Positions 24,855 through 62,892 of a stretch of DNA of 63,134 nucleotides are shown piece after piece. Origin of the DNA: a virus; IMG/VR virus record IMGVR_UViG_3300032677_000031, positions 1 through 63,134 of that record. One strand, written 5' to 3'. How positions within the stretch are numbered: position 1 is the first letter of the stretch; every line of letters begins with the position of its first letter. The translations under genes were made by a program, and so were the position numbers. The notes under the pieces were generated by a model. It had not been told where the DNA came from. It saw only the letters and a list, made by a program, of their open reading frames with translations, and searched no databases.

Positions 24855-27800
24855 TTAGCGATATGTGACGACCGGCGGTAGATCAGCTAGGGCTTTCTTT
24901 AGGTTGTCCAGCTCAGGGAGAGCCCTCTGGAGAGGCCATGCAAGGCTGGTAGACTTCTGGATGCCTTCGTGCGTGGTCAGACCCTTGACATGGTAAATGT
25001 CCTTCAAAAATCCGATCGGCTTTCCGGCAACGCTCCAAGGATAAGAATAGTGGGTGTTGTCCTGAGTTGGACGGGTGCCTTTTTTCACCTCGAACAAGCC
25101 GACGACCGTGTCGTTTGGCAGGTCAAAGATCCAATCGGTGGATAGGTCGCGGGCGATATCGTGGGGCAAAAGACCCATTGCTGCCAGCTCTTTGGAGCTG
25201 ATCGGGAGCTTGCTTCGCTGCATTTGACCGAGGAATGGCTCCATGTCACCGAAGTTAAGCTTCTTGCCGCGGACAGCGTCTGCGAATTTGCTGAAAGAAG
25301 TGATTTGCTTCCATTTAGCCCGGACGTTTTCGTCCATGTCTTTCTTTGTGCTATTTACAATGGCACTGGACATCTCTTTGATCTGGGCATCCAGCTGTTT
25401 CTGGGTGACATGCTTGGTGTCGCGGGCTTGCTCCATAGCCTCCACGTATCCGAGCTGACCGGTGGGGTTCTTTAGGTGATTGATCGGGCTCTGCAGGGTG
25501 ACGGCGACCAGTACGCTGTCGGTGCCATGCTTTTCAGCCAGCTTGTTGACGCGGTTGACAAAGGTAGAGGCAGGTCCATCGTTGGTAAATGCCCAGACGC
25601 CATTGTTGAGCAAGGTCATGTGCTCAGGGCCGCCCTGTGCCTCTACGCTCAGCTTTTTCTTGTCACCTGTCGGCCCTACATACTTGGTTCCTACGCCCAT
25701 GCGGTCGGCGGGCAAGGCAAACATCGGTCTGTCGGCATAATCCTCGAGATTTATTCGCTGTGAGGCCGGCAGGAAGTTGACAAGAATCTTAGGCTTAGCG
25801 ACAAAGTCGGCCTCCGGGTTGGTGACAACAACATGTCCATCCAGCCTGACCCGTGGCTGCTCTTCCTTGGCCTTCGTAGGCACAATCGTCGAGTCGATCA
25901 CGTAGGGGAACTCGTGGCCGTTCTCGTCCTCGAGCATGACGGCGTTCATGCCGTGGAGATCCTTGATCTTGATACCGAGATCGTCGTTGACGTATTCCAT
26001 CGGCAGGGTGCGGCGGAAGCCAATTTCTTTCATCATTGCATCGGTCTCAGGAACGCTCAGGCCACGCTTGATCTTGAGGAACGGCTGCGACACCTCGGAG
26101 TAAAGTCCGGCAGGCCACTTGTTGCCATCAATGTCTACGCCACCGCTGCCCTCTACGTTCTGTAGGCCGCGGAAGGTCAGCGCAGCTTTAGGGAACAGCG
26201 TGTTGTGGATCTGCAGCGAGTCAAAATAGTCCGCCCACGTCGGGTAGTAAGGGTTCGGGGTGCGCTTTACGACGTCAGGCCCGGGAGGGAACGAAACTTG
26301 GTGCTCGCCACCGGCTTCAGAGCCATCGAGCTGCCATTGCTTGTGGAATGGCTCTGGATCCCGCATGAGCCCATTCTCTTCCGCATGCCTGCGGAGAGCG
26401 GTCTCTTCTACCTCTTTCCGAGAAGCGCTTCCCGAGGCTCCCTGTACACCTTCTGCACCTGAGCCTTGCGCTCCTCTGGCGACAGACGCGAACCCGCCGA
26501 GAAGTCGATTCCGGTCGTCTTGGCTTTGGCCTCCAGCTTGGATGCCAGCTCTTTCAGCTTGGGTGTCACTTTCAGTTTGTTGTTCATCAGTGGATAAAGA
26601 TTCGTTGGTTTGGGTTCCCTCGTCAACGCCTTTTTCTGCTGGCAGATAATTCACCCCAAAATACTTTGAGGTCTTGGGCGTCTTGAAGATCTCGCGACCC
26701 TGCTGTACTTCGGTGAGCTTGGTTTTCTTGAACATTGCCACGGCATCGAAGGCGCCGTTGTATGACTTGGGGCTGAAGTATCCGGCATAGCCAGCGTCCT
26801 CGATCATGTTGTCCATCTTCTCGCGGTTCAACATGCCGGCGACACCAAGAGGATCCTTTTCGAGGTCGTAGATGCTATTTCCGTCAACCTTGGCCACGTA
26901 CGGGGTACGACCGCGCATGATTCCCTCATAATTGCGGTCGTTGTTCAGGTAGAAGTAGGTCTTGGGGGCACCGCGGAGATCGCCCGGAGTGGCAGCGCCT
27001 TTGCCGAATTTGCTAGGATCTGCCGACTTGAGGCCGTGGGCACCGAAATGCACGAGATCGAGCTCTCCACCGACGCTGCCTTCTTTTTCCTTGGAAGGGT
27101 GCTGTACGGTAAGCTTTTTGGCTGGTAAGAAACTTGGTCCCGACTTAGTCCCGGCTTGAGCCTCTTTCTCGGCTGCGTCAATGAACTCCTGAGGAAGTGC
27201 TATGTTTTTCTGCTCAGCAAACGGACGTTCGGTGACAGGCACGTAACCTTTCTCGCCCTTCTTGGCGATGTTGCCCTCTTCGTCACGCAGGTGCGGACCA
27301 AAGTTGACCCAGCTGTTCTGCGCCAGAGTTTCTCCGGCCAGCGCCGGCTTGGCGGCATCTGAGAACATGCGGCTGTGCTCAAGATAGGCATTGAACTCAC
27401 CCCTCGGCCCAAACTCGTACCCATTTGCCCCGTGACCCACAATGTCGTGCACAACGCGGAACACGTCGTTGACCGGTACGTTCTCTGCACCGTTGAAATT
27501 GACCCCTGAGTCCTGCAGCATCGGGTTCTCGGCACGCATCTTGTCCGTTATGCCAGATTCTCCGTACCCTTCCTTGGTCTGGAAGTAATACAGGTGCTTA
27601 TTGTCCCGCACGTCCTTCATCATCTCAGCCGAGTTGGCGTATGGCTGACCTTCGCCAGTCCAAGGAGTGGCCGTATAGCCGGCCTTCTCGAATGCCTTCC
27701 ACTGATCGACAACTTCATTTGCAAGCGCCGTGTAAGCCTTCTTGACCTCAGGATGACTCGGATCGTTCTTGGCTTCCTCGTAATGATCGGCAATACGCTT

Positions 27801-30800
27801 GGCAAGCTCTTCGTTTACGGGGACAGCCTGACCATGCGGGCGGTATTCCATGCCGGCATTTTTTACGTAATCTTCGGAAATACGTTGGACGTCTTGGTTA
27901 GCGTTCTTTGCAGGCTGGGCATAGGGGGTGCGCTGATCGGGGGCGACATAGGTAGCCTTGACTGCATTCAGAGCCTTTAGAATCGGGTTATTTTCCTCAT
28001 TAGGCTCCTCGGTAGCTTTGCCTTCCCTTGCAGGCAAGAAGTTCATCAGCTGCTTGCCGTAGTCTACCGGAAGCGGCGGAGCTGTGCTCTCAAGCATGTC
28101 AGCAATCGAATCTGCACGCACCGACATGATCGTACGATCTGCGTATTTGCCCTTAGGATCGCCTTTCTTGCGCGGTATGACGGTACGATCAGGATTGGCG
28201 CTGCGAGCGTCATTATTTGTAAGATTAAGAAAATCATTGAAGATATTTTTCTTCTCCAGAGCAACTTTAGGGTCTGGATCTAGCCCAGTCTCGCCCGGCT
28301 TACCGGTCAAGTGATTCTGCAGATACTTTCCGGCAAACTCGCGGAAGAAAGCCTCACGATTACCGCCCCAAGGTGCCAGACGCCCGGGCAGACGATCCGC
28401 CCACAGGTCAAGCTTGTTGAGCAGACGAGTGACCGAGACCGTAGTGATCAAGAAGTTGCCATCCTTTGAGAAGTGCATGCCAATCGGCACGAGATCGTAG
28501 ATTTTAGGGCTAAAGGATACTGCCTTGCCGCGGTCATCAACACGGGCAGCGTAATCAATCAGCATGCGATTACCATCGCCGCGAGCCAGCAAATCATTGA
28601 ACCGGAGGATTGATTCCTTGACCTTAGCCGGCACAATTTGCTCGGGAAGGGCTCGTATAGCTGCAATCTGAGCAGGCGTAAAGGTACCGCGGTAGGACAG
28701 ACGATCTTCAGATACAGGACGGAACCCCTCGGGTTCCCCTTGATAGGCAGTATCCAGAGCATCACGAATCAAATCGGCACGAGTCTTAACAAGCTGCTTG
28801 ATTTCCTTAGGGGAAAGCATCTGCGGCGTTTCGCCGTCCGGACCCATGACAATTTCCCGGGAAACCTTGAGCGATCCGCCCTCAGGAACTTGCACCCCTG
28901 CCGGTGCTTCTCCGTATCCGCTGCGCTGATTTAGCGTACCGTTTTCGTTGCCCCAGAGACCTTCCTTTGCCATCGGATCGGTCAATACCGTTTGACCGAC
29001 TACGTTTCCGTTGGCATCAAATACGGTTGCGCGGAACTCGGTCTTAAATAGACCTGAGTCACGGCCATAGCGCTCACGGAGCGCCTTGTTACCAATCAGC
29101 TTGGCTTTGGTAATCATCGGTGCCACAGACTCCCCGGCAGTAGGAGTTGAAATCATTCCGTTCAGCTTCTGCAGCTGGCGGACGGCATTACGGTGAGCGG
29201 AAAGTACCTCAGGGGTAAATTGGGCACCGGTTGCGACCGAAGGGGTTGCGGCAAAGGGGTCACGACCGCCGTTGCCCATGTACTTATCTACGGCACGTGC
29301 GACAATGCTGTTCTGCCGGTTCAAAGTTGCCCAATCAAGTAGGTGCTGCTGCACAGAATCAAGGCTCTTGAGATTGTGTCCCGTGAACGAAGAGGCATTG
29401 AGATCGGCACGTACCTCTTTCTTCATGTAGTCAACGATAGCCTTTTCGTTAGGGCGATCGTTCACCGTATCCCAGAGCTGATTGCCCTTAGCCCACTGTT
29501 CTTTAGCGGCCTTGTCGCCTTCACCGGACAGATATTCGTTAAAGAACCGATCAACGAGATCCTTGTTGCTGAACAGTCCTTTGGTGCTTTGATAAACTTT
29601 GCCATCGAGACCTCGGTCTTCGAAGTCAAACAGAAGTTTGTCGGTCTGAGCATTGAGCTCACGGAACTCAGGAATGTCATCCAGTGCGTGACCGAACTCG
29701 TGCCGAAGAGCATCGGCAAAGGATACGTTTTGAGCCTTTGCAAAGTCAGCAACCTTGTCAATGTTGACAACCGCGGTTGGCTTCATCGGATCAAAGGTCA
29801 CACGTGTCATCGGAGCCTGCAGCGCTGTTGGAACAGACTCACCCGGCACAAACTCACGACCCCCCGTAGGGAAATACAATCCAGCTCCAGTCTCAGCAAT
29901 CTGCTGCAGCTCTGCAGGAGTCTTGTCGGGATTCTGGGCAACCATCCGGTCAACGATCTGAGGAGTGGAAAGGATTTCGACTCCGATATTCTTCTGACCT
30001 GCGCGGAACGGACCATTAGTCGTTTCGTGCATGGTATTGATCATCTTTCCAATTTCCCGAGCATACGCCTGACGGGTGGCAACGTCGGCATTTGCAAGCT
30101 CTGGGTGCGTGCGGACAACATTTGTCCAATCCTGCAGCTGGCGGATGTTTTCCTGCGTCTCCGGAGAAAGCTGCTGCATCGTCTTGTAAATGTCGGCATC
30201 GGTCTGGCGTATTTCACGCTGATGTGCTGAGGGATCTTGACGAAGAGCCCCGTGCAAAGCTTTAGCAAACACACCAAAGCCAATACCGCTTTTCAAGCTA
30301 TCGGCCAGCTCATCGGCATCCTGAGAATTGAGGGCTCCGGTTGCTACGCCCAAGGCTCCCATGTTTACGCCCTCGCGACCGTAATCTTTAATCAGGTTAC
30401 CCAGTTTGTCGTAGATTTTACCGTTCTTAAACAGGGTCTGGGTCAGCTGAGAGGCTTCCGGATTAGCTCCGGCAAGTTCAAACATTCCCTTGCGACCGCC
30501 GGCAGATACGGCTTTTGCTTCGGCAAGATCAGCCAGCGTACGTGGGATCTGCGTTACCGCTTCGAGTCCCTTGAGCTTACCCAGAGCGCCGAGAGCGGTA
30601 TGTTCTACGATTGCTCCCAGCAAAGCACCGCGCAGAGGGTGTTCTTTGTCTTCACCGTATCCGATAACGGCACCGGGCAAATCTTTCAAAGCTGCCGTAC
30701 CAACAGCTGCCAATATGGGTCGATTTTGTGCAAATTCAGCTGCTGCCTGCTGCAATCCTTCGGTCGTATCCGCAAACTTTTTAGCCGCCGACCCTAGCAA

Positions 30801-31886
30801 TCCAATTTTGCTTGCTTTCTCTACGCGAGCCGCGGTGGCTGCCTGTTCGAGGGCTTGCTGGGCAGCCTTTGACATGCTGAGTCCGCGTACAAGACCCGGA
30901 ATGCCGGCACCTGCACCAATTACATTACCCGCAAATCCCATCTCGCCAAAACCAAGACCCGCGGGGCTTAGCCAGCTTCCTGCGGTCTTGATGTCTTCGT
31001 CGATGGGTGCCTGAGACTTAGCGACATCCTGAGCAACTTCCTGTGCCCCTTTGTAGGCGGTCTCGTCGTCAATCCCCGGGGCATTCAGCTTAATCAGGCT
31101 CTTCAATCCCTCCTGCACGTAGGGATGAAACAACATTTTGGAATACACCGTAGGGCTGGTGCGGTTAAGCAAAGCATTTGCGGTATCAACCGACTCTCTT
31201 GCTTGGTACCGGCGGAAAGAATCCTCTGGGGTAGAAAACCCATATTTTTCGCTCAGCTGATCCGTGTACTTGGTTCCCCCTAGCCCTATTTTAGCAGCGG
31301 TAGTGGCAAGTTCCCCCGGCAGCTCCATCACGGGGGCATTGAAAGACTTCAGGGCATTGAGGGTATTTACGGCGTGCGCCTTGATGTCTTCCTCAGACGC
31401 ATCCTCTGCAGGCTCTTCAAACATTTGACCTGCAAACTTTCCGGCACCACGTAACAGGCGCTTTGTTTCATCCCAGAGACTGCCGCCCGATTGCTCTTTC
31501 TTAATCAACCCTGCACGCTCGGCATCAAATACTTCGCGCTGTTTGTCGGCAGGGATTGGGTAATCAGGACGAATCTTTTTGAAGTCGTGCCACTCTTGGG
31601 GAGACCAAGTGCTCATCATCCCCAGATAATCTTTGTCGAAATTCTCCGGCTCTAATCCTTGCGTTGCGGTGGCAAACTGATCGACTGCGCTGACAGGCTT
31701 TTCTTGTTCCTGAGGCTTTGGGGTCAGCGAATCAAAAAATGCAGACGGATCCTCGGTCACCGAAGGTGCCTTGGTTTCCTCTTTCTTTTCCTCTGGCTGT
31801 TCGACTTTTTTCTCGGGAGCTTTAGGCTCCGGAGCTTTTGTCAAATTGTCGAAAAAGGAATTGGGATCATCCGTAATTGAATCCAT
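24855..31886 (-). CDS. Giant polyvalent virion protein
   Basis: 2343 residues. Residues 1-95 are disordered and carry two copies of a DPxxFFDxLT motif. About 300-420 are Gly/Ala-rich hydrophobic segments that could cross a membrane during ejection. About 727 holds HEFGH, a zinc metalloprotease motif. Around 1478 is VHDIVGHG then EFNAYLEHSRMF and QNSWVNFGP. About 1610-1740 contains LVHFGAHGL then YFYLNN, ADP-ribosyltransferase-like. Two further polyvalent-type domains lie at about 1870-2010 and 2060-2343. NFLPA or close variants occur near 1281, 1584, 1745 and 2035, between domains. By analogy with phage polyvalent proteins it is packaged in the virion and injected. Domain names are by eye. 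Confidence 0.75.
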   Translation of the reverse strand: MDSITDDPNSFFDNLTKAPEPKAPEKKVEQPEEKKEETKAPSVTEDPSAFFDSLTPKPQEQEKPVSAVDQFATATQGLEPENFDKDYLGMMSTWSPQEWHDFKKIRPDYPIPADKQREVFDAERAGLIKKEQSGGSLWDETKRLLRGAGKFAGQMFEEPAEDASEEDIKAHAVNTLNALKSFNAPVMELPGELATTAAKIGLGGTKYTDQLSEKYGFSTPEDSFRRYQARESVDTANALLNRTSPTVYSKMLFHPYVQEGLKSLIKLNAPGIDDETAYKGAQEVAQDVAKSQAPIDEDIKTAGSWLSPAGLGFGEMGFAGNVIGAGAGIPGLVRGLSMSKAAQQALEQAATAARVEKASKIGLLGSAAKKFADTTEGLQQAAAEFAQNRPILAAVGTAALKDLPGAVIGYGEDKEHPLRGALLGAIVEHTALGALGKLKGLEAVTQIPRTLADLAEAKAVSAGGRKGMFELAGANPEASQLTQTLFKNGKIYDKLGNLIKDYGREGVNMGALGVATGALNSQDADELADSLKSGIGFGVFAKALHGALRQDPSAHQREIRQTDADIYKTMQQLSPETQENIRQLQDWTNVVRTHPELANADVATRQAYAREIGKMINTMHETTNGPFRAGQKNIGVEILSTPQIVDRMVAQNPDKTPAELQQIAETGAGLYFPTGGREFVPGESVPTALQAPMTRVTFDPMKPTAVVNIDKVADFAKAQNVSFADALRHEFGHALDDIPEFRELNAQTDKLLFDFEDRGLDGKVYQSTKGLFSNKDLVDRFFNEYLSGEGDKAAKEQWAKGNQLWDTVNDRPNEKAIVDYMKKEVRADLNASSFTGHNLKSLDSVQQHLLDWATLNRQNSIVARAVDKYMGNGGRDPFAATPSVATGAQFTPEVLSAHRNAVRQLQKLNGMISTPTAGESVAPMITKAKLIGNKALRERYGRDSGLFKTEFRATVFDANGNVVGQTVLTDPMAKEGLWGNENGTLNQRSGYGEAPAGVQVPEGGSLKVSREIVMGPDGETPQMLSPKEIKQLVKTRADLIRDALDTAYQGEPEGFRPVSEDRLSYRGTFTPAQIAAIRALPEQIVPAKVKESILRFNDLLARGDGNRMLIDYAARVDDRGKAVSFSPKIYDLVPIGMHFSKDGNFLITTVSVTRLLNKLDLWADRLPGRLAPWGGNREAFFREFAGKYLQNHLTGKPGETGLDPDPKVALEKKNIFNDFLNLTNNDARSANPDRTVIPRKKGDPKGKYADRTIMSVRADSIADMLESTAPPLPVDYGKQLMNFLPAREGKATEEPNEENNPILKALNAVKATYVAPDQRTPYAQPAKNANQDVQRISEDYVKNAGMEYRPHGQAVPVNEELAKRIADHYEEAKNDPSHPEVKKAYTALANEVVDQWKAFEKAGYTATPWTGEGQPYANSAEMMKDVRDNKHLYYFQTKEGYGESGITDKMRAENPMLQDSGVNFNGAENVPVNDVFRVVHDIVGHGANGYEFGPRGEFNAYLEHSRMFSDAAKPALAGETLAQNSWVNFGPHLRDEEGNIAKKGEKGYVPVTERPFAEQKNIALPQEFIDAAEKEAQAGTKSGPSFLPAKKLTVQHPSKEKEGSVGGELDLVHFGAHGLKSADPSKFGKGAATPGDLRGAPKTYFYLNNDRNYEGIMRGRTPYVAKVDGNSIYDLEKDPLGVAGMLNREKMDNMIEDAGYAGYFSPKSYNGAFDAVAMFKKTKLTEVQQGREIFKTPKTSKYFGVNYLPAEKGVDEGTQTNESLSTDEQQTESDTQAERAGIQAGGQSQDDRNRLLGGFASVARGAQGSGAEGVQGASGSASRKEVEETALRRHAEENGLMRDPEPFHKQWQLDGSEAGGEHQVSFPPGPDVVKRTPNPYYPTWADYFDSLQIHNTLFPKAALTFRGLQNVEGSGGVDIDGNKWPAGLYSEVSQPFLKIKRGLSVPETDAMMKEIGFRRTLPMEYVNDDLGIKIKDLHGMNAVMLEDENGHEFPYVIDSTIVPTKAKEEQPRVRLDGHVVVTNPEADFVAKPKILVNFLPASQRINLEDYADRPMFALPADRMGVGTKYVGPTGDKKKLSVEAQGGPEHMTLLNNGVWAFTNDGPASTFVNRVNKLAEKHGTDSVLVAVTLQSPINHLKNPTGQLGYVEAMEQARDTKHVTQKQLDAQIKEMSSAIVNSTKKDMDENVRAKWKQITSFSKFADAVRGKKLNFGDMEPFLGQMQRSKLPISSKELAAMGLLPHDIARDLSTDWIFDLPNDTVVGLFEVKKGTRPTQDNTHYSYPWSVAGKPIGFLKDIYHVKGLTTHEGIQKSTSLAWPLQRALPELDNLKKALADLPPVVTYR

Positions 31887-37161: not shown

Positions 37162-39297
37162 TTAACAAGGGTTAGCCTGACGATATTTCGTTACCGCAGC
37201 CGAAGCGGCTTGGCTAGCCAAAGTAGCTGCCTGCTCTTGGGCGTTAGCAAAAGAAACAAAGGATTGAGCAGAAGCTGTTGCGGTTGCGGACACATCAAAA
37301 ACGCTACTCCCAGCTCCGCAGGAACTGGTAATTGTCCTAGTTTCAGTGGCGTACCAAGATTGTTTATTATAGTCAGGCTGATCGTATGGGCTCGGGAGCA
37401 AATCAACAGAATCGCTACTGCCATCCTCAGCAATCACACAGGGTACTGTTTCGTTAGCCTCTGGCTTACCCGTTGACTTTTCTTGATACGGATCCATGAA
37501 GCAACGCACAGCTTCAATACCTAATTCTCCGCACCACTCAATTAGGAACCCAAACGCTTTGTCGATGTCGGGGGAATAAGTTGACTCGCACGAGGAAACG
37601 TTAGCTTTGCGTTGGATTTCTTCCGTGATCAATCGACGGTATTGGGTACGAAGTATTCCGTAATTTGAAATCTGCCCCGAGAGTGGGGTGTTTTCGTATT
37701 GATAGGCATCAGTAACCGCAAGCAGTCGGGTGTTTAGGATCTGTTGATATGCCCCTTTGCTTCCTTTGTAGGAAACACGGACGTCGCAAGTTCCGCCAAG
37801 CTGTGTGCATTCCACTTCGGCATACTTTAGCTGTTTGACGTCCATCCCATCTCCCAAAAGACCGGTCTCCGCTTGGCAATAAATCCTGCTATACTTTGTC
37901 GTTGTCGTGCCATCGGGGTTGATCTGCAAATAGCTATCAACGCGGTCAGGCAAGAAAGATTCCCACAGATGGTTAAAGGATCCGTCGTTGGTAGAGACAT
38001 AATCAACCGACAGGTGAAAAATTCGTGGCTGTTTATCAACGATCCCACTGATCCACTCGATCGGCCTTGTTCCGTTCCAGACGCCAGACCACGCCGGGAT
38101 TTGACCCTGTGAAAGTTCACTGGCAGGGGCATAATCGAGCACCATTGTGGCGCTTGGAATAGGCTCGAGATACGGAACAGAAACTAGCAGATAATTTTCA
38201 AAAGCAGCAGAACATACGCTAGTAAGATTACTAGGAGTAAAACGTTTGACTTTTGCCATTTCGACATCTTTATAAAGAACTTGGGATGAGAGATAAGAAG
38301 TAGCTGCTACGTTGGCATTTACTAAACCGCCTTGAGAGTACCACCACAATAGCCCCGCTTGAAAGGTAATTGATTTACCGGCAATGCACCCAACCGTTGG
38401 AAAAAAGGTATTTTGGAAATTGGAAGTAGAAATCCATTGCGCCCGGTCTAAAACTCCACTGGCAAGCGAGTAGGTAGCCCTATCCGAAAACACTACAAGG
38501 CGTGTGTCATTGTTCTGCCCTACATAATCTACCATGCCAGTCACAGGGCGGGGGAAGGTAAAATCTCCGCGGCCTGAGCCAGACTTTCTTTCGGACCACC
38601 CAAGAGGATTCCCAAGGTCAGAAGCGTATACAATGTTTCCACTTGATACCCAGAGCCGGTTTCCTGAGAAAGCCATCCAATAACCAATTGGCATGTCGGG
38701 GGATTGTCCTCCTAATTTGTCGCTTCCATCCCAATATCCCGGCTTGCTAACCCCATCTTGAACAACCAAAAGACGATTTGCTGGGGTGACCGTTACGTCC
38801 CCGCCAGCACTTAAAGAAGCCGTCTGAGTAGCAATTGTAAACACAACCTCGGAGGCACTAGGGTCTAACTGTATGCCGGAGAGCTTGTAATTTTCCCAAT
38901 TGTCGGGTTGGGTCAGCGGGAATGGGGCAAAATAAACAGAACCTCCGACAGCAAAAACAATATAGGGAAGCTCACTGGCAAAAGAAGGAGTCCCGTCGTA
39001 ATTGTAGATTGTGGCTTGGTTTGTGGAAGTACCCCCGGAAGTTACCGTAGTCGAAGAAGCTTTGTATTGACGGTTGGCAGAGAAAAAAATGCCGCCCTGC
39101 AGATTTCCCGGAGGCAAAGAAAGTTTCATTCCTTGACCGGGACGGGTCTGAACAATACCTCCTCGGATGGCTACGTTGACACCCCACTTGAGTTGCTCGG
39201 CAGGAAGATTCCAAGGGTTGCGTACCGAGTTTATCCCGTGTAGCCAACCCGCTGTAATTTTTTCTTGCCGTCCCGCAGTTATGTTGGGGGATTTCAT
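37162..39297 (-). CDS. Tail nozzle/tubular protein B-like
   Basis: 711 residues from ATG 39297 (MKSPNITAGRQEKITAGWLH). Beta-rich throughout with repeated WS/WxG blades (NRLLVVQDGVSKPGYWDG, GNRLWVSSGNIVYASDL, AWSGVWNGTRPIEWISGI), as in beta-propeller nozzle proteins of podovirus tails (T7 gp12-like). Residues about 250 (VTGMVDYVGQNNDTRLVVFS) support this. A C-terminal Ala-rich helix (about 670-711) is unusual and may contact the next tail component. It follows the adaptor gene by 2 bp, the standard order. Confidence 0.65.
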   Translation of the reverse strand: MKSPNITAGRQEKITAGWLHGINSVRNPWNLPAEQLKWGVNVAIRGGIVQTRPGQGMKLSLPPGNLQGGIFFSANRQYKASSTTVTSGGTSTNQATIYNYDGTPSFASELPYIVFAVGGSVYFAPFPLTQPDNWENYKLSGIQLDPSASEVVFTIATQTASLSAGGDVTVTPANRLLVVQDGVSKPGYWDGSDKLGGQSPDMPIGYWMAFSGNRLWVSSGNIVYASDLGNPLGWSERKSGSGRGDFTFPRPVTGMVDYVGQNNDTRLVVFSDRATYSLASGVLDRAQWISTSNFQNTFFPTVGCIAGKSITFQAGLLWWYSQGGLVNANVAATSYLSSQVLYKDVEMAKVKRFTPSNLTSVCSAAFENYLLVSVPYLEPIPSATMVLDYAPASELSQGQIPAWSGVWNGTRPIEWISGIVDKQPRIFHLSVDYVSTNDGSFNHLWESFLPDRVDSYLQINPDGTTTTKYSRIYCQAETGLLGDGMDVKQLKYAEVECTQLGGTCDVRVSYKGSKGAYQQILNTRLLAVTDAYQYENTPLSGQISNYGILRTQYRRLITEEIQRKANVSSCESTYSPDIDKAFGFLIEWCGELGIEAVRCFMDPYQEKSTGKPEANETVPCVIAEDGSSDSVDLLPSPYDQPDYNKQSWYATETRTITSSCGAGSSVFDVSATATASAQSFVSFANAQEQAATLASQAASAAVTKYRQANPC

Positions 39298-39299
39298 TC

Positions 39300-42200
39300 T
39301 TAATACGTATCGTAATAGTCGTAGGCTCCCCATCCAGACTCAATGACTGGGTCGGATTTGTCACCGTATACCAGATTATTTACCTGAATAGGCTCGATTG
39401 CGTGCCCGTCCATGCTGGTCTGCTGGTTACGCAGGTAACCAAAAGCCAGCTGCCAGTATTTCATGGCCTGATCGCTAAAATCTTTATCCTCGAGGTCGAT
39501 TGCGTGTACCGCTGCCAAAATTGCACGTTCCTGTTCGACGGGAATGTAGTCGTAAATACTAGTAATGGTCGGGTGTTTTACCCGGTAAATGATTCGAGCC
39601 CAAGCGCACTTTTGGCCGACGCGGATGCGGCGATACATAGGATTGGTTTCACTTGGGTGATATTGACCGATCAACGCCATGTCGTTGCTGCGACCGTAAT
39701 CGTACGCGTAAAGGCTGACATAACCTTGGGTGACGGGCTTATCCACGTGATAGACAGCTTTTACAAAAGTTGGGTCTTCAACCGCATCGAGAATGAAAGT
39801 GCTGGCGCTGGTATTTCCTACCGTCGTGAAGGTAATTAACCCCGTGTTGTTTGGTACGTGGTTTACGATATTGTTTGCGTGCGCCAACGTGTCAAACAAT
39901 TGGATTGTCTGAGGATCCAACAATCGAACGTAATATGTAGTACCGGCGGTTAAATTCGGATCAAGGATGTCTCCGGTAACGGGACGGGGCACAACGGCTG
40001 TTCCCGTTGAGAAAAATGCGTTTGTTAAGGTAATCGTATTCGGCGCCACTGGGGTAAACTGACGAATTACTTCCAAGGATAACTGCCCCACACCTAAACT
40101 AGTGAATGCCTGCAAGGTAGTCCCCGTGGAGTCATACACCTGAACATACGATCCGTTGATTTGAATTGTGTAATTTGTAGAAGCAGTGAGCGGAGCCGGT
40201 AATGTTCCCGTAGTAGTAAACTGAACCGTCTCCCCATTCTGCAGATATTGCAGAGAGCTCAAAGAAACTAAATTGTTGTAGCTTACAGCAGTGGCGCTTT
40301 CTTGGATCGCGTAATAAGATTGTCCCGTACCAAGCTGGCTAATGGTAACCAAAGTAGTCAAACCTGCGTCTGAATAAATTTGAGCCGTAGTATTGGTAAG
40401 AGGTTTGATATAAAATTCAGTAATACCGTTGTCGATCGTCGGGGAGGTAATAGGCAACAAATAATCGGTACCAAAATAAATTCCCGTTCCGCTGGATACC
40501 CCAAGAAAATCTCCTGCCCAAACGTTGGTAAATCCGATGTAGAAAGTACGGCTGATTGTAAGATAAAGCTGCCCGCTTCCTACGCTTGTTAAATTTATGG
40601 GGCTGTAATCATCATTAACCAACGTGAACGAGTTTGTTCCACTAGGCGCTTCTGCCCTATAAGTCACTCCATCCTGAAGGGGAGCGGGAAGAGTTCCTGT
40701 CGTAGAGAAAGAAACGAGAATACCTGTCGAAGGGGTTACCGTCACTACGGGAGCAACGTTGTATCCGGTTCCCTCGGAAACTATTGTAACCGAGCTGACT
40801 ACTCCATTTGCAATTGTGCAATACGCGGCGGCATTAGCTCCGCCTCCCCCAGCAAAGTTAACGGTTGGTGCCGAGGTATATCCAGAACCTCCATTTGTAA
40901 TATAAATTGCCGTAACAACTCCCCCAGAAACTGAGGCCGTTGCCGAAGCTCCGGTTCCACCTCCACCATTTGTGAAAGAAATTGTAGGGGCGGTTGTATA
41001 TCCGGTTCCACCGTTAGAAACGGTGATCTGGTTTACCGCTCCGTCAGAAATTCCCGTAGTGGCCACTGGAACGGTTTGGCCCGGGGATACGGTTGGGAAC
41101 GAAATCGAAGGGGGTACCGTATATCCGCTGCCTCCATTTACGATGTTGTACTGAGTTACAAAAGAAGTCGTAATGCTTGCGGTAGCCGCGGCATTAGAAC
41201 CTCCCCCACCTGAAAAAACTACCGTTGGGTTAGAAGTATACCCTTGCCCGGGCTGATCAAGAACTACTGCAATAACGGTCTGGTATTGAGAAGTACCAGA
41301 AACTGTTCCGACAATAGCATGTGCGGTTGCTCCGTAACCACCCCCACCGGTAATGGTAACCGAAGGGGCGGATGTGTAACCACTTCCAACATTGGAAATA
41401 GTTAAAGAAATAACCGGACCTGAGACAACGGCATTTATTGTAGCCCCCGAACCGGTAGCGGTAGGCAAAGAAAATCCGGGAGCTGTAATCTGGCTAGTCT
41501 TGCCGGTCTGTGCCGTTGCGGGGATTAACTTGTTAAGTGTATTCTGTCCAGAGCCCGAAGTGGTCAGGATAATTGGATTATTACCGCTGGTTGCATCGGC
41601 GGCTGAGGTATGCAAAACAATGGTCAGCGAGTCGATGACTTGCACGTAATAATTCTGAGCTTCTACCAAAGGCTGTGGGAGGGTTCCGCCGTTTGTGTAA
41701 GCCTGAACTACATCACCGGTCGCAAAAAGATGGGGTAGATTAAATTTAATTTCCGTAATTGGGGCGATTGTTTTACGCAGCTGTATGTTAAAAGTAGAGG
41801 TACTGCCCGTTAAATAAATTGGGTTGGTTTGGCTTTGAGCGTCTGCAACTGTTGAAAAAATTTGGAGATGTGTTGAGTCAAGAACGTTTGCAAAATACGT
41901 AACCCCGGATACTAAAGGCGATGGAAGTGGGCTCCCTGAGAAAACAACTTCGTTACCGGAGTTAAGCGTGATGGTAGGCGCCGAAGATAATTGAACCGCG
42001 GTTACCAAACTAGCGTTTCGCTGGTCGGTAAGGGTCAATGTCCCTGCGCCGGCAATGCTAATCAAATTGATTGGGTACTCCCCGCTCTGAGCGTACAGAG
42101 GATCGTTGTATAGCTGGATAGTGGTAGGGTTGACAACGCCGACGTAGTATTGATCAGAAACGGTAAGCCCCGTTGGCACCGTGCCGGTAGCCGAACTCAA

Positions 42201-60315: not shown

Positions 60316-60392
60316 TGGCTGCCGCGCTAGGACTTGAACCTAGAAAAGCCGCTTTCAAAGAGCGGTGAGTCTACCAATTCCTCCACACGGCA
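60316..60392 (-). tRNA. tRNA-Gln (anticodon TTG), CCA encoded
   Basis: Minus strand 60392-60316. Acceptor TGCCGTG pairs with CGCGGCA (one U-G); anticodon stem CCGCT/AGCGG with loop CTTTGAA gives anticodon TTG; T-arm CTAGG-TTCAAGT-CCTAG; discriminator G and encoded CCA at 60318-60316. The U1-A72 pair and G73 are glutamine identity features. The D-stem is short and the D-arm looks leucine-like, but the variable loop is short. It reads CAA (and CAG). Confidence 0.92.
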
Positions 60393-60400
60393 ATGAGTTT

Positions 60401-61027
60401 TCATTTCGGCAAAGCAAAATCTTTTTTGTTGTACTTCCGGCAATTCCAATATGCCGGAAGGATTTGAAGGTTCGTGTGATGGTGTTTGCCGTTTTTAGAA
60501 AGGGGAACGATATGGTCTACCTCCCAAGGATTCCCTAAACAACTTTCAAGCCGTCTGCAACATTCGGTGAGGCAGGTTTCAATCTTTATATCATGATTTG
60601 GGTCGATGGATTCTTTACGAAGGGATCTTCGATAACGGTTTTGTGACAGGACGACTGAATAATTCTTTCTTTTCCATGCCACAAGATTTTTCCTGACCTT
60701 CTCGGGATTTTTACTTTGCCAACGCTTAACCGATTGCAAGCTTTGGTTCTTTAGCTCTTCGTATTTTTCTGGAGATACCCACCATTCTCCATCCTTGCAG
60801 TTGGGCGCATACCTCCAAAAAATTTTTCCGCTTACTGGGTTGACTTCTCCCACTTTTCTTGGGGTTCGGTCACTAAACAAAATGCGTCGCCGTTGGGTTG
60901 TCTCTTTTAGCTTTTGCTTTTTGGCTAAAAATTTATCAGGCGTGAGCCACAGTTCTTTACCGTGGATGACCGCCCAAAAGATTTTCCCTGTTAGGGGGTC
61001 TATTGTTCCGTTTTTTAGTTTCATCAA
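60401..61027 (-). CDS. HNH homing-type endonuclease 4, tandem module
   Basis: 208 residues. Carries two copies of the N-terminal module: NGTIDPLTGKIFWAV then ELWLTPDKF (6-33) and VGEVNPVSGKIFWRYAP then EWWVSPEKYE (59-90). After a basic linker comes the HNH core NPWEVDHIVPLSKNGKHHHT and NLQILPAYWNCRKYNKKDF. ATGA overlap with the terL stop. Position directly downstream of terL fits the frequent association of HNH genes with terminases, but the module duplication points to a mobile element of this phage's own family. Confidence 0.85.
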   Translation of the reverse strand: MMKLKNGTIDPLTGKIFWAVIHGKELWLTPDKFLAKKQKLKETTQRRRILFSDRTPRKVGEVNPVSGKIFWRYAPNCKDGEWWVSPEKYEELKNQSLQSVKRWQSKNPEKVRKNLVAWKRKNYSVVLSQNRYRRSLRKESIDPNHDIKIETCLTECCRRLESCLGNPWEVDHIVPLSKNGKHHHTNLQILPAYWNCRKYNKKDFALPK

Positions 61028-62892
61028 TCTTGACTAAAATCTATAAACCCTGCTTTGTCAATTAAGGTTTGGGAAAACTGTTTACCTTGAAACTCCCGAG
61101 TTGGTTTGGGGGTCGTCATCGTCGGTACGCTTCCGCTGCGCTGGCGGAACAAGAACACGAGTAAGCTCAGTGAGTCAAGTGCATCCGGTGACGGCTGGCG
61201 TGTCCGCTTGCAATACTCGGCCTTGGCCTCGACGCGTACCAGCCCCCGACCCTTCTGCTTGTACCGGCGACCCGTCGCCTGCTTGACCAGCTCCTCGTGC
61301 CGGAAGCCCGGTGAGATCTTCAGGTAGCCGAACTCAATGAACTTGCCGAGTCCGAAGATCAGCTCGGTCACAACCCCGTTGTACATCTCGTTTGCCTTCT
61401 GCGTGTCGTCGCCCAGCACGTGCGTGTCGGTGGCGGCCTCCGAGTAGTTGACGCCCATGACCTCGGGGCCAAAGATGTTCTTCAGGTTGTCGTGCACGCC
61501 TGACCCGTTGCCGGTTCGATCCACGCATACCCAGCCCGCTCCGATCTTCATCTGGTTGCAGAACCGCATGATCGCCTGCGTCTGCTTTACGGTGTCGCCC
61601 TTCGGGAATGGCATCTGGCTGTCCACTTGCACGACGACCCGCGGCTTGTCGAATGCTTGGAACTTGCCGCTCAGTGGCGTCCATCCGTCGCTCAGACCGA
61701 ATCTTCCGTACGTGCACATGAGCTGGTCGTTGCCCTCGAGCGCCAAGTCAAAGCTGGCCAGCGGCACGACGTTGCCGACGAAGCGTACGATGCCGACCGC
61801 GTTGTCCATCATGGCCGGCGTTATGATCGCCATCGACACACCCTCCTGCGGGAACCATCCGCGTGCCATCGTGAAATACTCGCCGGTACGCCCGCGGCTC
61901 TCGTAGTTCATGAAGCCCTCGTAGGTCTGGAGACCGGGGTACACGACCCTCTTCTCCATCACGTTCTCCGATCGCGCCGCGTCCAGTCGCAGGACGTGCC
62001 ATCCGTCTCGGCTACGCCACTCGTAGTCCTCCTCGCAGTCGATCGAGCCCCAGCCCCGCTTCGGTTCGCACAGCCGGCCAAAGTGGCTGGTGCGGTCTTT
62101 CGGGTTGGATGCCGCGAAGACCTTGATGTGACCGGCGTTCTTAGTGTCTGCGGTTGAAAGCAAATTGTAACATCCTTCCCATACGCCGGCTGGGATTTCC
62201 TCCGCCTCGTCGAGGATGACGAAGTTCCGGGTCAACTTGCCGAATCGGTTGTGCGCTTTGCCATGACGAGGTGACGGGTGAAATCCGCGTAGCACGCCGA
62301 AACCTGACTCACCCTTGGGGATCGCCACAAGGTGGATGCCCTGCTTGCTGTCGCTATTCGCTTGGATGCTCTTCACCAGATCTTCTGAGTTATCCATCGG
62401 AGGTTTGACCAGTGCCGTGCGGTGGAAGTTCTTGATCGACGCAAAGATGTTGCGCTCCGCGTGCTCGGCCGTGAGCGAGATGACCTTGATCGACGTGTTG
62501 CACGGATCCTGCAGCCAGCTCAGGTAGAAAAAAGCTGCCGCACCAAACGACTTACCCATAGCGCCGGCTCCTTGCACCAGTAACTTGTCATGCTGAAACA
62601 AGCATCTCCACACCTCACGGGAGCTTTCTGGTCTCCAGTTGTAGGTTTCCCCTCCCCACAGGATCGTTGCAGCCGCCTCAAACTGGTCTCCCTGCAGGAG
62701 GGTGTCCACATACCCCCAAACCACGTTCCGAGCGATTTCTGGCCTAATCTCGAGCGATTGCGGGGGGTTTGCGGTGAGGTGCGTGAGGATCCAGTGGGCA
62801 GCGTACAGGATGCCCCGCTCCTCGTCCCGGTCGGCTTCGGCTCGAATTTTTTCTGCGATAGCAACAAGTTTTGCGACGGCCGGCTTTAGCAT
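61024..62892 (-). CDS. terL: Terminase large subunit
   Basis: 622 residues. ATPase: Walker A VQGAGAMGKSFGA (about 107-119), Walker B NFVILDEAEEIP (about 222-233). Nuclease (RNase H-like): ASFDLALEGND (first Asp, about 374-384), VCVDRTGNGSGVHDNL (about 444-459) and SPDALDSLSLLVF (C-terminal Asp). It packages DNA into the procapsid through the portal. Its ATG overlaps the stop of the HNH remnant by 7 bp, and its stop overlaps the next HNH gene. terS lies just upstream across the contig ends. Confidence 0.92.
   Translation of the reverse strand: MLKPAVAKLVAIAEKIRAEADRDEERGILYAAHWILTHLTANPPQSLEIRPEIARNVVWGYVDTLLQGDQFEAAATILWGGETYNWRPESSREVWRCLFQHDKLLVQGAGAMGKSFGAAAFFYLSWLQDPCNTSIKVISLTAEHAERNIFASIKNFHRTALVKPPMDNSEDLVKSIQANSDSKQGIHLVAIPKGESGFGVLRGFHPSPRHGKAHNRFGKLTRNFVILDEAEEIPAGVWEGCYNLLSTADTKNAGHIKVFAASNPKDRTSHFGRLCEPKRGWGSIDCEEDYEWRSRDGWHVLRLDAARSENVMEKRVVYPGLQTYEGFMNYESRGRTGEYFTMARGWFPQEGVSMAIITPAMMDNAVGIVRFVGNVVPLASFDLALEGNDQLMCTYGRFGLSDGWTPLSGKFQAFDKPRVVVQVDSQMPFPKGDTVKQTQAIMRFCNQMKIGAGWVCVDRTGNGSGVHDNLKNIFGPEVMGVNYSEAATDTHVLGDDTQKANEMYNGVVTELIFGLGKFIEFGYLKISPGFRHEELVKQATGRRYKQKGRGLVRVEAKAEYCKRTRQPSPDALDSLSLLVFLFRQRSGSVPTMTTPKPTREFQGKQFSQTLIDKAGFIDFSQD

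Follow-up and report, generated by a model that had tools for sequence, protein, structure and literature searches.

A protein-specific aromatic-x-proline motif separates the modules of a phage polyvalent protein and is a candidate polyprotein junction

The polyvalent proteins of phages and conjugative elements are long multi-domain chains of interchangeable modules that are predicted to be transferred together with the DNA (Iyer et al., 2017, PMC5512222). The release of their domains by an embedded peptidase has already been proposed for such proteins in general, with DdrB of P1 as a processed example, and the virion RNA polymerase of N4, which also carries such a domain, is packaged without being cut (PMC5512222), a point against cleavage. 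Processing at a short motif that is particular to the phage (AXE in SPN3US) is known from the ejection proteins of T4 and SPN3US (gp245) that are cut by the prohead protease (PMC10052503). By analogy only, the polyproteins of eukaryotic RNA viruses likewise combine one chain, a repeated protein-specific junction motif and an embedded protease-like domain. To our knowledge, polyvalent proteins had been considered as possible polyproteins without a processing signal in hand.

Here we describe a polyvalent protein encoded in a viral stretch of 63,134 nt (IMG/VR record IMGVR_UViG_3300032677_000031; hereafter the window), whose modules are separated by four copies of [NS][FY]LPA, termed joints. It resembles the proteins of Iyer et al. 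(2017) in its length and multi-domain build, its Kinase-PolyVal domain, its zincin-like HExxH, the ART and GNAT modules of its relatives, the interchangeability of its modules and the predicted co-transfer with DNA; it differs in its lineage-specific separator, and the joint motif was not found in that text by the terms searched. A short motif is also a feature of the ejection proteins of T4 and SPN3US, which are cut by a separate protease, mostly to remove N-terminal propeptides, whereas the motif here separates effector modules and would be a cleavage site. Unlike those of the RNA virus polyproteins, the modules here are exchangeable effectors rather than replication proteins, and their cleavage is a proposal. 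No description of the joint motif was found in the open-access papers searched; the joint code appears to be new, while the protein class and the idea of release by an embedded protease were already known. Such a code makes the polyprotein idea directly testable and the module borders readable from sequence alone, would permit expression of each effector as its natural fragment, and raises the evolutionary question of how a newly acquired module takes on the joint of its recipient.

The separator motif and the module borders of the window protein

By domain content, the window protein is a polyvalent protein: it combines more than one catalytic or conflict domain, Kinase-PolyVal and phrog_3170/HDIVGH, in a single chain encoded by a mobile element (Table 1). 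Its operon of virion genes also includes the large terminase gene (61024-62892), structural protein genes and, at 37162-39333, a gene that weakly matches an internal virion protein; this position beside virion genes supports a predicted transfer of the protein into the host with the DNA, and the polyvalent protein with its N-terminal core (residues 1 to ~1281) is probably packaged in the virion. Close to the terminase gene, the cluster of virion genes contains a single tRNA gene, tRNA-Gln (TTG), at 60316-60392 on the minus strand. The HEFGH and HDIVGH sequences named in the initial annotation are present, and the Kinase-PolyVal domain, unnamed there, was added by Pfam. The ADP-ribosyltransferase label for residues 1590-1745 was dropped, as Pfam gave no confirmation of it and found no such domain in the window protein; additional ART-PolyVal and GNAT modules are carried by one relative (L005).

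Table 1. Features of the polyvalent protein and their positions in the window
Feature	Residues	Position	Strand	Remarks
Polyvalent protein ORF	2343 aa	24855..31886	(-)	last gene of virion-structural operon
Tail motif copy 1, ITDDPNSFFDNLT	4-16	31839..31877	(-)	
Tail motif copy 2, VTEDPSAFFDSLT	43-55	31722..31760	(-)	
Conserved N-terminal core	560-1281	28044..30209	(-)	common to ~22 related polyvalent proteins; AF2 pLDDT 78.5, pTM 0.75
HEFGH, zincin-like putative metalloprotease site	729-733	29688..29702	(-)	HExxE in L006/L010
Joint 1, NFLPA	1282-1286	28029..28043	(-)	directly after core; disordered in models
HDIVGH domain	1330-1580	27147..27899	(-)	phrog_3170-related; pLDDT ~90
Joint 2, SFLPA	1585-1589	27120..27134	(-)	extra modules here in relatives L005, L010
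Module without Pfam match	1590-1745	26652..27119	(-)	
Joint 3, NYLPA	1746-1750	26637..26651	(-)	extra modules here in L005, L010
Kinase-PolyVal domain PF18762	1824-2001	25884..26417	(-)	E=1.9e-19 (Pfam)
Joint 4, NFLPA	2037-2041	25764..25778	(-)	
C-terminal module	2042-2343	24858..25763	(-)	relatives in L158, L164

The motif [NS][FY]LPA occurs exactly four times in the window protein against 0.006 copies expected, and none of 2,000 composition shuffles of this protein yielded more than one copy. The initial annotation had placed the four copies at about residues 1281, 1584, 1745 and 2035, and each was found one or two residues further on. A scan of the six-frame translation revealed the motif in no other plausible gene of the window, and the remaining [FYW]LPA matches lie in short frames of at most 128 codons without gene support. 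An FALPA at residue 2056 was considered as a further joint and rejected as part of the last module.

That the motif marks domain borders, as had been proposed from the single sequence, was borne out by alignment with three full-length relatives from IMG/VR (L005, 3,133 aa; L006, 2,541 aa; L010, 3,110 aa), in which whole modules are inserted or lost exactly between copies of [FY]LPA. At joint 2, the sequence GPSFLPA-KKLTVQH of the window corresponds in L005 to GPSFLPA, an L5_gp82-like module, SFLPA, a GNAT module, SYLPA and then KKLTVQH. At joint 3, an added ART-PolyVal module in L005 ends in NPESPDVR-YLPA, and two added modules in L010 each have YLPA at the end. Across 25 proteins, a joint-type motif lay no more than 6 residues away from 17.5% of homology-block ends and from 4.4% of random positions (1,000 simulations, highest 7.3%), where a shared motif can stretch block ends by ~3 residues, so that the clustering at 6-20 residues is the safer figure. 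Compared separately, the window protein and L006 were 96% identical over the aligned region of their effector halves (window residues 1290-2343) and ~35% identical in their cores, which suggests a recent swap of the whole effector cassette.

The coincidence of motif and module boundary would also be expected if the motif were a by-product of module shuffling, that is, a short homology that guides recombination at the joints and is copied along with the modules. Within one gene, the joints are encoded by freely and synonymously differing codons (for example TTC TTG CCT GCA, TTC TTA CCA GCC, TAT CTG CCA GCA and TTC CTG CCG GCC) and share little DNA, which indicates selection on the protein rather than on DNA homology; since the same module, moreover, takes the motif of the recipient lineage (see below), we consider this explanation highly improbable. 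The motif is therefore a genuine protein-specific separator, a short linear motif at module borders that operates at the protein level.

Predicted structures were used to locate the joints relative to folded domains. In the model of residues 1270-2343, the HDIVGH domain (~90 pLDDT) is flanked by joints 1 and 2 at ~30, and joint 1 also falls in the disordered tail of the core model (built for residues 560-1290 from 22 sequences; scores in Table 1), so both joints are predicted to lie in disordered linkers. The model of residues 1580-2343 has a pLDDT of ~30 around joints 3 and 4 and is too poor for judging either. The predicted disorder of joints 1 and 2 speaks against a purely structural role of FLPA, as a cap between one fold and the next that nothing reads, as do unrelated modules that end with the same motif and related ones that end with different motifs. 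In one joint class a strand would naturally end at the residue pair that follows DIR, in keeping with such a cap, which we nevertheless regard as very unlikely. The view that the motif is functional and probably recognised is strongly supported by the module insertions, the synonymous codons, the disorder at the modelled joints and a protein-specific homogenisation that was replicated in other families, as described below.

A joint code across polyvalent proteins

A survey for FLPA-like motifs in other polyvalent proteins had been suggested at the outset. FLPA itself was mostly absent from HDIVGH polyvalent proteins, and the signal emerged only once repeats were sought separately within each protein; in several, the repeat is of the aromatic-x-Pro form: FMPE is found five times in L018, YSPA four times in L012 and QFKP five times in L051, and QFQP, SFSPK and YSPS are repeated in still other members. 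With the end of the N-terminal core as the query, 26 loci were recovered, representing 22 non-redundant proteins. These ~22 core-sharing proteins carry the joint motif G-I-[NSQR]-[FY]-x-P-x, in which x hardly varies within a protein and changes from lineage to lineage, and fall into FMPE, FMPA, FLPA, YSPA and FLPR/K groups. The first copy directly follows the core, as in PVNYGFAKIN-FMPE and PVDYGKQLMN-FLPA; the pattern is weak in L171 and L172, and L152, L165 and L166 appear truncated. Over 96 unique sites the favoured context was G-I-[NSQR]-[FY]-[ML]-P-[AE], in which the M/L/S/K choice, the proline and the last residue are constrained by the search pattern, G-I is not, and homologous sites inflate the counts. 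No phage collection record encoded the core, and among the neighbouring ORFs examined the motif was seen in polyvalent proteins only.

Homologous modules were then compared between lineages. The DEAHAKAIESGD module follows YLPA, FMPA or YSPA, depending on the lineage, the YPTSExGFYS module follows FMPA, FMPE, YSPA or FSPE, and KNPVYGDxAN is found before FLPA or FMPE. Judged from these sequences, homologous modules take the joint of whichever protein contains them, that is, the motif of the recipient lineage; exceptions exist, e.g. one FLPA in several FMPE proteins. With lineages set by core identity, which replaced an earlier, partly circular comparison of lineages named by motif, residues 2 and 4 were common to 31% of non-homologous joint pairs within one protein and to 7% of joints between proteins with cores less than 50% identical. 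Homologous joints across such cores shared both residues in 30%, which is attributed largely to the exchange of near-identical cassettes among the window, L005, L006 and L010. Beside this, the sequence YQPPHLNS[HQ]FSPSDE occurs twice in L042 (residues 1514-1660), directly before joints, which suggests a duplicated module end.

Outside the core family, 53 polyvalent proteins analysed with the HDIVGH region masked displayed within-protein homogeneity of the aromatic-x-Pro motif (z=4.6, 0/400 permutations), and 13 control centre residues in the same proteins gave z of -1.3 to 1.0, none with an effect. Applied to 21 proteins derived from GTDB, the two-residue statistic was without effect and the one-residue statistic alone was positive (z=3.5), which implies that the code is absent from many polyvalent proteins. 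The last joint found was never at the C-terminus, lying at least 98 and usually more than 300 residues away. We consider the joint code almost certainly real.

Cleavage, docking and the embedded zincin-like site

The reading we prefer, held with about even confidence, is cleavage at the joints. The chain would be a phage polyprotein composed of an N-terminal core and four interchangeable modules, each preceded by its [NS][FY]LPA separator; a sequence-specific protease would recognise the separator and cut, most simply, beside the aromatic residue or after the fourth residue, and so, in the capsid or after ejection, release the core and each single effector. In most lineages this protease could be the zincin-like core domain, which is not required in all, and in lineages lacking an intact site another phage protease or a host protease would act. 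Cleavage is favoured because every joint lies between modules, the last joint is far from the C-terminus and release by an embedded protease has already been proposed. Against it stand the lack of recognition of the core as a peptidase by Pfam, the degenerate site in four motif-rich proteins and the absence of any recognised prohead protease in the genes scanned, and most of the same patterns would be given by a docking motif.

Docking is a serious, if somewhat unlikely, rival. Each joint would bind a phage protein, such as a scaffold, an internal virion protein or the ejection channel, and the multi-module chain would be packed and threaded out in order, uncut. An aromatic-x-Pro motif in a disordered linker, in a version particular to each protein, would be consistent with its having co-evolved with a phage protein that binds it, and a second, duplicated lineage-specific motif in the N-terminal tails looks docking-like; the placement of the motif between modules, with the last copy found never near the C-terminus, is harder to accommodate, as docking would not require the motif to keep away from the end.

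Which protease would cut under the cleavage reading was examined at the HEFGH site, to which the initial annotation had tentatively assigned the release. As in zincins, HEFGH lies in a predicted helix of the core model and is followed by a later helix that contains an invariant Glu (alignment position 265); HExxH is present in 20 of the 22 aligned core sequences, and alignment positions H170, E171 and E265 are invariant. Searches with the core gave no match to a known metallopeptidase: Foldseek returned no significant solved relative, PDB profiles no peptidase, and Pfam no family for the window core. The repeated protein-specific junction motif between units that a self-processing chain should carry is present, and an intact embedded protease does not accompany it everywhere: joints are kept beside HEAGE in L006 (residues 920-924), HEVGE in L010 (residues 921-925), HDAGH in L099 (near 615) and HDALH in L014 (near 563), in all of which the zincin-like site appears to have lost a ligand or the catalytic Glu. 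Furthermore, HExxH and joints are statistically unlinked (HExxH in 17/21 motif-rich and ~45/57 motif-poor proteins). Despite the precedent of P1 DdrB processing (PMC5512222), it is unlikely that the zincin-like domain of the same chain is the dedicated or sole cutter; cleavage still fits the motif best, and HEFGH as the cutter is doubtful.

Extended to tailed phages, the cleavage reading would describe a widespread polyprotein strategy in which virion-delivered effector modules are carried on a core and separated by a short [FY]-x-P-x junction code. This code would be fixed per protein, differ between lineages and be adopted by modules when they are acquired, and a cognate protease would read it and set the effectors free. 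We put this broader proposal forward tentatively, as somewhat less than evenly probable.

The N-terminal tails of the core family (window, L147-L172) contain a tandem duplicate of a motif of ~13 aa with lineage-specific sequence. The other plausible genes in the loci that were checked did not contain it, and in 21 of 24 proteins the self-similarity of the tail was matched by at most 5 of 100 shuffles. This tail motif may dock the protein in the virion.
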